The translations under genes were made by a program, and so were the position numbers. A stretch of 10,594 bases of DNA, taken from Fervidobacterium sp. (lineage in GTDB: Bacteria; Thermotogota; Thermotogae; Thermotogales; Fervidobacteriaceae). The notes under the pieces are model-generated. The model did no database searches. It saw only the letters and a list, made by a program, of their open reading frames with translations, and was not told the origin of the DNA. Each line of letters opens with the position of its first letter. Position 1 is the stretch's first letter. This document shows positions 1 to 9,566 of the stretch, one piece after another. The stretch spans positions 1 through 10,594 of the forward strand of contig DPIB01000226.1 in assembly GCA_003522805.1 (NCBI GenBank). Direction: 5' to 3'.

Positions 1-48
1 GCTTGCATTTCTACAAGCCCCCGCATCTATAGACGGGGGGTAGTTGAC
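1..48 (+). mobile_element. Right end of an IS200/IS605-family element (partial, body outside window)
   Basis: Two consecutive stem-loops are visible: GCTTG (1-5) with CAAGC (14-18), and CCCCCG (18-23) with CGGGGG (34-39), followed by GTAGTTGAC. A G/C-run hairpin with a short AT-rich loop, followed by a TAGTTSAC-like tail, is characteristic of IS200/IS605 right ends, which TnpA recognises as single-stranded hairpins rather than inverted repeats. TTGAC at 44-48 resembles the right cleavage pentamer of ISDra2-like elements (family recall, not checked), so the element probably ends at 48. A tnpB reading frame could finish inside this stretch, for example the plus-strand frame ending in TAG at 41-43 (reading QAPASIDGG), but too little is visible to assign it. 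The hairpins are seen directly; the family call is recognition; the position of the body to the left is inference. Confidence 0.7.
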
Positions 49-64
49 TTAGAAATTCTTCGTT
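1..64 (+). ncRNA. Candidate 3' part of a TnpB omega RNA (right-end scaffold plus guide)
   Basis: In IS200/IS605 elements that encode TnpB, the omega RNA is made from the 3' part of the element. Its scaffold is the folded right end, and its guide is the roughly 16-20 nt of flanking DNA next to it. If the element here carries tnpB, the scaffold would end at about 48 and the guide would begin at 49 with TTAGAAATTCTTCGTT, antisense to the last native codons of surE. Such a guide would match an uninterrupted surE copy and so favour keeping the insertion. Only the right end is in the window, so the existence of tnpB and of the RNA is inferred from family knowledge. Confidence 0.35.
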
Positions 65-799
65 TGTCATGAAAATACTTATTGGCGTTACAGATATATA
101 CCTTTCTGAAAGAGCCTTGTAGTCGGCTAGTGGATCCGGATCATCTTCGATTACATCACCTAGCATCCAATAATATTCCCTTCCTGTAGGGTCTACCCTC
201 TTCTCGAAGTAATCCTCGTATCTTCGTTTACTTTGCCTTGTGACCTTCCATCCATTTATTTCGTTATATGGCAACGATGGTACGTTTATATTTAATGCGG
301 TAAATTCCGGAATACTCTTCACATCGAACTCATTTAGAAAGTCTAGCAAGAACAATGCAGCAGTTTCATAGATCGGCGATTTGAAATCAGCAACCGATAT
401 AGCTATCGACGGGACTCCCGCAATAGCGCCTTCTAGTGCCCCGCTTACAGTACCTGAATATATGACGTCTGTTCCCAAATTCTCTCCTCTATTTATCCCA
501 CTTATTATGAGGTCCGGAATCATGCCCTTTTCTTTGTAAATCACATCCAGACCGATCTTTACACAGTCTGCAGGTGTACCAGAGACAGCGTACATTTCGA
601 AAGGCTCACTGATGTCTAGTTTTCTAGTCCATAACGGTAATCGTAACGTTATACCATGCCCAACTGAACTTTGTTCAGATTCTGGCGCACTGATGACTAC
701 GTTATGCCCCCGACTCAGAAATCTTGCTGCACACAGAATACCTGGTGCTGTCACTCCGTCATCATTTACAAGCAATATGTTCAAACCGTTCAAGCTCAT
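11..799 (-). CDS. surE: 5'/3'-nucleotidase SurE, C-terminus rewritten by an IS end
   Basis: SurE is a cytoplasmic metal-dependent phosphatase that removes phosphate from nucleoside 5'- and 3'-monophosphates and is linked to stationary-phase survival. The metal and active-site motifs are present: NDDG (Asp13, Asp14), a Ser in SEQSSVG (about Ser44) and Asn103 in SGINRGENLG, followed by the GTVSGALEGA helix. I chose ATG at 799 (262 residues) because GAGGAG sits 7 nt upstream; an in-frame GTG at 814 lies inside that site. Family members are about 247-255 residues. The native part ends near MTNEEFL, and the last 12 residues (SQLPPVYRCGGL) and the TAG are read from the IS200/IS605 right end. Only a short native tail appears lost and all catalytic residues are kept, so activity may survive. 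It is the last gene of the isoprenoid cluster and has its own candidate promoter. Confidence 0.93.
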   Translation of the reverse strand: MSLNGLNILLVNDDGVTAPGILCAARFLSRGHNVVISAPESEQSSVGHGITLRLPLWTRKLDISEPFEMYAVSGTPADCVKIGLDVIYKEKGMIPDLIISGINRGENLGTDVIYSGTVSGALEGAIAGVPSIAISVADFKSPIYETAALFLLDFLNEFDVKSIPEFTALNINVPSLPYNEINGWKVTRQSKRRYEDYFEKRVDPTGREYYWMLGDVIEDDPDPLADYKALSERYISVTPISIFMTNEEFLSQLPPVYRCGGL

Positions 800-806
800 G
801 ATGCCA

Positions 807-812
807 CTCCTC
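807..812 (-). promoter_or_regulatory. Ribosome binding site that fixes the surE start
   Basis: On the minus strand GAGGAG ends 7 nt before the ATG at 799. The longer in-frame GTG start at 814 would overlap this site, so the ATG is preferred. Confidence 0.7.
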
Positions 813-849
813 ACTACAATTTGTCGTCTTTCTTGTGTTTCACCACGAT

Positions 850-877
850 ATTCTAGTTACTTTAGCTACTTTGTCAA
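850..877 (-). promoter_or_regulatory. Candidate sigma-70-type promoter for surE
   Basis: Reading the minus strand, a perfect -35 TTGACA (872-877) is followed after 16 nt by TAGAAT (850-855), a 5 of 6 match to the -10 consensus. The -35 overlaps the last codons of ispG (Leu-Thr-Lys). The expected start site is near 843, giving a leader of about 44 nt before the surE ATG. This would allow surE expression apart from the upstream operon. Both hexamers and the spacing are seen directly; activity is inferred. Confidence 0.55.
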
Positions 878-1903
878 TTCTTTTACGTACTCTTCGAGTT
901 TGTTAATACCCTCTTCGTAGGGATACGTTCCTACTATTTGCCCTTTGTAAAACAAAACTACACCACCTTTTGTTCCAGCTATCCCTACATCGGCTTCTTT
1001 CCCTTCGCCTATACCATTGACAATGCATCCCAATACCGATACAGTTATTTTCTTATCTATCTTAGCAATTTTTTCTTCTATTGCAAGTGCTACTTTCTCA
1101 ACATCAAACACCGACCTTGCACAAGTCGGACAAGCTACAACGTCTGGCCCCTCCCTCAAGTGGAGGAACGTTAGTAACTTTCTTGCCGAAATTACTTCGT
1201 TTACAGGATTCCCTGAGATCGATATCCTCAATGTATCGACCAATCCGTCCATGATCAGCGTACTTAAGGCGATCGATGACTTTATCAACGAATTATAAAT
1301 TGTACCCGCTTCAGTAACGCCAACATGCAGTGGATAATCCACTTGTTTGGCTACATATCTGTTAGCTTGTATGGTCTCAATCGCATCTGAACTTTTCACA
1401 GAGATTACTATATCGTTGAACCCGTGTTTTTCGAGCAATTTGACCTCTCTGAGTGCTGCTTCTCCAAGGGCTTGTTCTCTTGGCAGATGTTCAAGGTCCT
1501 TTGGTAGTGAGCCAGTATTTGCCCCCACTCTTATAGGTACGCTACGTTCCTTGGCAATTTTCACAATCTCCAACACTTTTGATGGGTCACGTATGTTGCC
1601 TGGGTTTATCCTAATTTTGTCTATGCCATTCTTAATAGATTCTATGGCAATTCGATAGTCAAAATGTATATCTCCAACGAGTGGAACTGATATTCTTTCC
1701 TTTATTTCTTTCACTTTTTTGGCGCACTCTAAGTCGGGGAGCGAAACCCTAACTATCTCACAACCTGTTCGAACAAGATTGTTTATCTGTTCTACTGTTT
1801 TTTCCACATCTCTCGTATCTGTATTGGTCATTGACTGGATTACAATTGGATTGCCTCCACCTATTGAAATGTCACCAACTTTAACCATCTTACTAGCTCT
1901 CAT
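866..1903 (-). CDS. ispG: 4-hydroxy-3-methylbut-2-enyl diphosphate synthase IspG (GcpE)
   Basis: IspG is the cytoplasmic iron-sulfur enzyme that reductively opens 2-C-methylerythritol 2,4-cyclodiphosphate to HMBPP, the penultimate step of the MEP isoprenoid pathway. At 345 residues it is the short bacterial form: an N-terminal TIM barrel (about 1-250, with QSMTNTDT at 23-30 and VGDIHFDYR at 76-84) joined to the cluster-binding domain. The three [4Fe-4S] cysteines are Cys258 and Cys261 (CPTC) and Cys293 (LGCIVNG); Glu300 in GIGEG is the fourth ligand. The ATG has a GAAGGGA ribosome site 6-7 nt upstream. It lies 37 bp after rseP and is probably co-transcribed with dxr, another step of the same pathway. 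The electron donor is not encoded here. Confidence 0.96.
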   Translation of the reverse strand: MRASKMVKVGDISIGGGNPIVIQSMTNTDTRDVEKTVEQINNLVRTGCEIVRVSLPDLECAKKVKEIKERISVPLVGDIHFDYRIAIESIKNGIDKIRINPGNIRDPSKVLEIVKIAKERSVPIRVGANTGSLPKDLEHLPREQALGEAALREVKLLEKHGFNDIVISVKSSDAIETIQANRYVAKQVDYPLHVGVTEAGTIYNSLIKSSIALSTLIMDGLVDTLRISISGNPVNEVISARKLLTFLHLREGPDVVACPTCARSVFDVEKVALAIEEKIAKIDKKITVSVLGCIVNGIGEGKEADVGIAGTKGGVVLFYKGQIVGTYPYEEGINKLEEYVKELTK

Positions 1904-8598: not shown

Positions 8599-9433
8599 TT
8601 ATCTTCCCTTCTTGTTTAATTTTGCTGCCCTTCTTGTTCTGACAAATTGATAAAACTGATATGGTTGCGACAATGCCAATTTCAATGGCTTTGGCAAAAT
8701 CAGAATGAGCAGATACATAGGCACATAGGCACGAGTATCGATGGAAAGGTAATGTACCAATAGGCTCTTAATGTCTCTTCTGTTACGACCATACCAATCA
8801 TTGTAAGTATTCCTAATATGATGCTGCCGACTGTGATATGGTAGCCCAAAACAAATATAGAGTCTTCCGAAAATCTATTCAACACAGATGCAATTTGTGA
8901 CCATACGATTTTTAGATTGTTTCTCTCAACAACTTGAGCAATCCAGATGACAAATATCATGGCACCAAATTCTCCAACCAAGCTCAGGAGGCCATATCTT
9001 CCATACCGTCCAGAATTCCAATTTGAACCACCATTTACCCAAGCAGTCAGAATCCAAATGCCTAGTGCTGTAATTCCATGCCAGAAATGCAATTTGAAAT
9101 GTACTTTTTCTCTGAACAATCTCCCAAACTCTAATGTGATGAGCGCCGTAAATGCAACATCTATCTTGAATGGCATTGCTACAGGCTTTATCGAAGAGTA
9201 CATCCTAAGGAATATGCCAAAAGCAAGTTCGATTTCTTCTTGATGATTTTTGTTACACTAGCCCCATCTTTTGGATAAAGATATCCACTGATAAAAGGAA
9301 AAATGGCTATTATATACGTCAGAAACTCAAAGATAAATGTTGGACATTGCGAGTGTGCAAGTATCACAAGAATTATCGCTAAACCACGCGAATAGTCAAG
9401 CCATTCAATTCGATTTGGTGCACTTGTTGCCAT
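8599..9433 (-). pseudogene. Decayed membrane acyltransferase (acyltransferase-3 family)
   Basis: The intact family is a membrane O-acetyltransferase that modifies sugars or surface glycans. The N-terminal piece (9433-9188; ATG with AAAGG 5 nt upstream) has the hallmark RIEWLDYSRGLAIILVILAHS and the membrane helix ending FISGYLYPKDG, then runs to TAA at 9188. A second frame, open from about 9245 and annotatable from 9203 to 8700, continues with FTALITLEFGRLF and further membrane helices. The roughly 100 or more residues normally between these parts are missing, so I infer an internal deletion plus frame change near 9225-9245. Near the end, an 8-bp tandem duplication (8715-8732) shifts the frame to TGA at 8700. 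Removing one copy restores YLLILILPKPLKLALSQPYQ and runs to TAA at 8599, 3 nt before the ABC-F start. Two separate lesions indicate a dead gene. The gap before it (9434-9566) shows nothing clear. Confidence 0.85.
8715..8732. repeat. 8-bp tandem duplication (CATAGGCA twice) in the pseudogene
   Basis: CATAGGCA occurs at 8716-8723 and again at 8724-8731, with period-8 identity from 8715 to 8732. Deleting one unit joins the minus-strand reading SILVPM to YLLILILPKPLK, so this looks like a slippage duplication that broke the frame. Confidence 0.85.
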
Positions 9434-9566
9434 ACTTGCCTTTCTTTCAACTACTTTGGTCAATCACTCCGATTCCATTGCGCCACTCTCTACATGCTGT
9501 TGAACTCTTATCACAGCAACCACCAGTGAAATCCTACTCTATTTAGACAGGAATTGAGAAATAAGA

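Follow-up and report, generated by a model that had tools for sequence, protein, structure and literature searches.

The closest described systems to the locus studied here are the IscB/HEARO OMEGA elements, reportedly set out by Weinberg in 2009 and by Altae-Tran in 2021, and in the former work HEARO insertion is said to occur before ATGA or GTGA. In TnpB systems of the IS200/IS605 superfamily the RNA carries its guide at the 3′ end and the TAM is at the opposite end of the element, and IsrB is without an HNH domain. The present element differs from the former, with their 3′ guide and TnpB protein, in that TnpB was unmatched in its own assembly, and from IsrB in that the IscB proteins of the same genus carry HNH (PF01844). 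It shares with TnpB of the ISDra2 type (PMC8612924) the superfamily and a guide taken from DNA beside the element end, and the IsrB OMEGA nickase is likewise an RNA-guided relative, with an NTGA/TTGA TAM (PMC9581776). NTAAA is given for one IscB (PMC13180657); RF02033 is matched by 65% of these nucleases' 5′ UTRs, and few of the nucleases are near or associated with TnpA (PMC9755519).

The element, which lies at the end of surE in a Fervidobacterium contig, resembles the IscB/HEARO OMEGA elements (RF02033, NF040563) in a scaffold that begins with GTCAAC, a 5′ guide from flanking DNA, an iscB gene that in relatives stands downstream in the same direction, and, in other copies, a far flank of ATGA or GTGA. 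There is no categorical difference from them; what stands out here is that 15 of 20 two-ended copies lie at co-directional stops and that five copies in the same assembly are internally deleted. The surE element is a further IscB/HEARO element, of a known kind, and its gene-junction pattern is worth testing.

The terminus at the 3′ end of surE

The window (the whole stretch of DNA analysed, 10,594 nucleotides) is contig C216 of an assembly, here called G000, of 1.60 Mb in 235 contigs that is 81.89% complete. Two neighbouring hairpins were confirmed within window 1-48, and the hairpins and TTGAC end that an earlier note on this DNA had described there are real: as minus-strand RNA the segment had a folding energy of -19.7 kcal/mol (z -3.6), which none of 200 shuffles equalled, and the hairpin pair is a repeat terminus edged by TTGAC, or GTCAAC when read on the minus strand. 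The Rfam family RF02033 (HEARO) matched window 48 to 1 on the minus strand over model positions 1-42, with position 1 at window 48, and was the sole Rfam match up to E 10 when window 1-120 was scanned. The match reached 26.4 bits (E 3.4e-4) and stays below the gathering value of 83 because it is truncated at its 3′ side by the contig edge; 48 bases of the surE copy of the element are assembled, and the contig stops at position 1. Since surE sequence abuts HEARO position 1 directly, host DNA lies immediately 5′ of the scaffold, and the idea of an RNA guide consisting of surE sequence thereby stands. The omega RNA had been placed on the plus strand with a 3′ guide from 49 complementary to surE; the HEARO match puts it on the minus strand, with a 5′ guide that is sense to surE and reads from window 64 to 49. 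The features of the region are as follows, guide lengths of 16 or 20 nt being general background values.

1..48, minus strand: 5′ part of the IscB omega RNA (HEARO), from the RF02033 match and the fold; the remainder lies beyond the contig edge
48 to 39, minus strand: element terminus GTCAACTACC, with the hairpins next to it
49..64, minus strand: predicted guide of 16 nt, 5′ of the scaffold, the same as the surE coding strand and adjoining HEARO model position 1
49-68, minus strand: predicted guide if 20 nt long
11..814, minus strand: surE, 267 codons as now read, from the ORF, PF01975 (SurE) and nine surE loci of relatives
866..1903, minus strand: ispG (GcpE), co-directional and upstream of surE, Pfam PF04551
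1941-3434, minus strand: M50 protease, Pfam PF02163
3442-4557, minus strand: dxr, Pfam PF08436/PF02670

Comparison with relatives showed that the last 12 surE codons (SQLPPVYRCGGL) and the stop are supplied by the element terminus and that about 14 native codons are replaced, i.e., the 12 foreign residues stand against 14 native ones in relatives (18 in G002). At nine surE loci of eight same-genus genomes uninterrupted surE continues 14 to 18 codons past the break point, and the sequence of window 1-48 is absent after surE there, which bears out the claim that a terminus of the IS200/IS605-superfamily kind sits inside the 3′ end of surE. At the break point GAATTTCTAA is followed by GTCAAC in the window, and GAATTTCTGA by ATAAATTGGAGGG in G006 and G007; in these two genomes the start of the following gene, which from its motifs we take to be def (peptide deformylase), overlaps the final surE bases. 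The gene after surE found no match in G000 with G007 DNA as the only query and without a positive control. When the guide segment was compared with the same place in sibling surE genes, 12-14 of the 16 bases were alike in seven sibling genomes and 8 of 16 in the second surE of G005; this comparison leaves out the surE of G002, where the place matched is unrelated (TTGGAGGGA). The insertion shortens SurE and also breaks up its junction with the next gene, which is conserved among the compared relatives.

Copies of the terminus and of iscB

DNA searches together with an RNA-family search detected 21 termini in G000, the one in the window included. Contig edges hold 12 of them, among these window position 1, so that the window most likely starts where the assembler halted in a repeat. 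The termini nearest to that of the window (C222e and C191e, 92%) lie on contigs that break about 65 and 105 nt into the element. The five two-ended copies in G000 are internally deleted, with lengths of 223-408 nt, and 4 of 12 copies in G002 are likewise short (144-355 nt). Among the iscB pieces inspected in G000 none was intact; they are fragments, some with stops or deletions. At the right end of contig C91 (L035), a thirteenth edge, only the inner element part of about 75 nt is present, with other sequence on its far side and the usual far end absent; it is either a short leftover of the element or a chimeric join made in assembly.

The terminus as a DNA query found nothing in the eight other same-genus genomes, in two of which covariance and protein profiles then detected the element type. 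RRXRR (PF14239) and HEARO co-occur in the same three of nine genus genomes (G000, G001 and G002), and among 13 scanned sources HEARO exceeded its gathering value in eight (L084, L080, L045, L046, L059, L077, L036 and L087). The same terminus stands before iscB, directed away from it, in G001, in G002, in a Thermotogota MAG and in a viral contig, and iscB lies downstream of HEARO on the same strand in G002, G001 and L059. All four of the relatives' proteins tested were assigned to NF040563 (guided_IscB), and a Pfam scan of two full-length IscB proteins from the genus showed the HNH domain (PF01844) in both. G002 (L076-L083) holds two kinds of iscB whose far flanks differ, ATGA in one and GTGAA in the other, and in some copies of the second kind the GTGAA closes a ribosome-binding-like stretch, GGAGGTGAA.

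Outside the genus, a 21-base piece of the terminus matched four contigs (L045-L048) of the Thermotogota MAG USSF_maxbin.001, whose closely similar copies begin GTCAATTACC rather than GTCAACTACC, and a 19-base piece matched one viral contig of 180 kb, L059 (IMGVR_UViG_2529292852). IscB-type ORFs were present behind the terminus on the strand equivalent to the window's minus strand in L045, L046 and L059, and L047 and L048 end too early. The iscB of L046 is broken, and elsewhere in L045-L048 it leaves the contig or lies beyond reach; together with the iscB fragments of G000, the broken gene suggests that the subfamily may be dead. At 6548-8172 of L059 an iscB ORF of 458 aa was observed together with a HEARO RNA, and the terminus there is similar, so the element type is found on a phage-like genome too. 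In the plasmid collection the terminus was unmatched at E 1e-5.

Competing readings of the element

The earlier note had named TnpB as the nuclease, in an IS200/IS605 element whose right end lies here and whose plus-strand 3′ guide starts at 49. Hairpins bordered by TTGAC do look like IS605-type right ends, and TnpB was matched in four of nine genus genomes, but the TnpB profile (PF01385) gave 0 matches in G000, an assembly about 82% complete and broken at these repeats, by a search that was positive in 7 of 14 control genomes. In addition, HEARO was matched at the terminus on the minus strand, the strand that in relatives carries iscB behind this terminus. This reading is therefore highly improbable, and a TnpB element with a 3′ guide at its right end is ruled against by the terminus being the 5′ end of HEARO on the other strand. 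Given HEARO at the terminus, the iscB genes that follow this terminus in relatives and TnpB unmatched in the assembly, we conclude with high confidence, as to both identity and orientation, that an IscB element (OMEGA, HEARO-type; IS200/IS605 superfamily), co-directional with surE, ends in window 1-48 with its omega-RNA part. For annotation this means that an IS605-like TTGAC end may be the place where, on the opposite strand, an IscB omega RNA begins, a reading that flips guide, strand and TAM. A search for Y1 transposase gave a single weak fragment under the cut-off in G000 and four matches in G002, each about 1 kb or less from a TnpB match and over 10 kb away from any place with iscB; these IscB elements are thus without a transposase detectable by the Y1 profile.

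Within the IscB assignment, and not exclusive of it since it would be a special case, the surE copy could be a MITE-like, internally deleted derivative that consists of the omega RNA part and the far end without iscB and is mobilised, and perhaps served, in trans. The five two-ended copies of G000, too short for iscB, the short copies of G002 and an additional far end in L089 fit such a derivative, but the two nearest copies break inside the element, as expected of an unpassable and perhaps full-length repeat, and we give this possibility somewhat less than an even chance. It is unlikely that the terminus is what is left of a dead element and now serves as only a 3′ hairpin (a terminator or mRNA stabiliser) behind surE. 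That account would suit the strong double hairpin, the position of most copies just behind genes and the lack of a detected intact iscB in G000; against it, the 12 of 21 termini at contig edges point to many alike copies and so to a fairly recent spread, and in L002 and L003, copies that run further inward, a T run is absent after the second hairpin. As an IscB element, the copy in surE may lack autonomy and be supplied in trans, as such a derivative would, or it may be dead.

Far flank, placement and proposed working

The far flank starts with RTGA in all 20 two-ended copies (G000, G001 and G002) and with RTGAA in 19 of them, a count that is partly circular because the search patterns accepted only far ends with RTGA no more than about 10 nt from the conserved end. 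These 20 come from 24 copies away from contig edges, the far end being unrecognised in C59, C8, C188 and C191i; the set leaves out these four, the 12 contig-edge copies, the four USSF copies and the extra far end in L089, and one copy (G002 h) entered it under its own pattern. (A/G)TGAA is likely the TAM of the element, in place of the TTGAT motif proposed earlier. The end in surE can be called a right end, as it had been, in the transposase's orientation only, where it would be the end without conserved flank; for the RNA it is HEARO model position 1, and the (A/G)TGAA flank is opposite.

The empty site of one G002 copy was spanned in four siblings, which have TGGTGGG before the joint in common. 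In G001, GTGAA follows precisely at the joint and nothing is duplicated; the other three lack RTGAA (GTGGC in G006, GAGAA in G004, GAGAG in G008). Sibling surE genes carry ATAAA, AAGAA or AAAAA at the insertion place, never RTGAA, and we infer that the ancestor of the window surE carried ATGAA there. The predicted cutting of uninserted surE would accordingly be TAM-limited, as had been claimed, and would not extend to every copy, given AAGAA, ATAAA and AAAAA in the siblings.

The placement of the elements was compared with 1104 background RTGAA sites, which come from G002 only (200 kb), while the copies come from three genomes (G000, G001 and G002). Gene calls relied on ORF length only, and distances to stops were measured after joining the flanks. 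The results showed that 15 of 20 two-ended copies lie at most 40 nt from the stop of a co-directional gene, compared with 107 of the 1104 background sites (Fisher p 1.5e-11), and that 13 of the 20 lie at most 20 nt from it (59 of 1104). The five outside 40 nt are G000 C40, G002 e, G002 l, G001 a and G001 c; two of these (G000 C40 and G002 e) are the only ones of the 20 inside gene interiors, where 883 of 1104 background sites fall. At four of the 20 joints (G000 C209a, G002 d, G002 g and G002 j) the TGA of RTGA is itself the stop of the upstream gene, as a stop/start overlap. The upstream gene within 300 nt is in sense for 33 of 36 copies outside gene interiors; among background sites the figure is 127 of 187 (p 0.004). 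This result is weaker than it appears, because the 20 left-only copies were given artificial stops, so that a gene cut by the element passes for one that ends nearby. In 13 of these 20 left-only copies a sense ORF of at least 80 codons ends 1-50 nt before the element. Among all 40 copies the nearest upstream gene is antisense in three (G002 l, G001 c and G000 C233e), and the 300 nt upstream are gene-free in two (G000 C200s and USSF d).

The gene-end bias (15 of 20) suggests that host mRNA, extended at its 3′ side, supplies the omega RNA; most of the bias is accounted for by selection against broken genes. Transcription from the upstream gene may also be needed, as the guide is not part of the element itself, and such a need would add the orientation bias, which is modest here. 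We put forward tentatively, and regard as rather doubtful, the broader proposal that the IscB elements of the genus rely on host operons, in that the omega RNA would be promoterless and always cut from the 3′ tail of host mRNA and the elements would persist mainly at ATGA/GTGA stop/start junctions behind expressed genes. If this is true, an ATGA/GTGA junction would serve at once as TAM and as the landing site that does least harm, and guide supply, target choice and host tolerance would come down to a single sequence feature. No published description of IscB gene-junction placement was found at title/abstract level, which is not proof of absence.

At surE, the insertion sits in the last codons, just ahead of the junction with the next gene. 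The operon of dxr, M50 protease, ispG and surE, all on the minus strand, would be transcribed onward into the element; the first three genes are the likely source of this read-through, provided that they are co-transcribed. The resulting RNA would carry surE sequence first (the guide, window 64 to 49) and then the HEARO scaffold (from 48 to 1 and on past the contig edge), and IscB from this or another copy would bind it. The complex would address an uninserted surE allele in which the guide target is followed directly by (A/G)TGAA, and would cut there, and repair from the occupied copy would restore the element, so that the occupied surE allele would be favoured. The cutting and retention steps are modelled on what is known of this superfamily. 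We judge the chances to be evenly balanced for these working steps, namely transcription from the host operon, a prior RTGAA at surE, cutting and restoration. The wider set of copies makes for a testable idea on IscB guide expression and on the position of elements at gene ends.

Elsewhere in the window, an acyltransferase-like gene on the minus strand (8700-9463) seems to be split across two frames. Its part at 9188-9463 scored 29.8 bits against the N-terminus of PF01757 (cut-off 31), the next part, 8700-9203, had no Pfam match, and the split possibly reflects a frameshift or a sequencing error.
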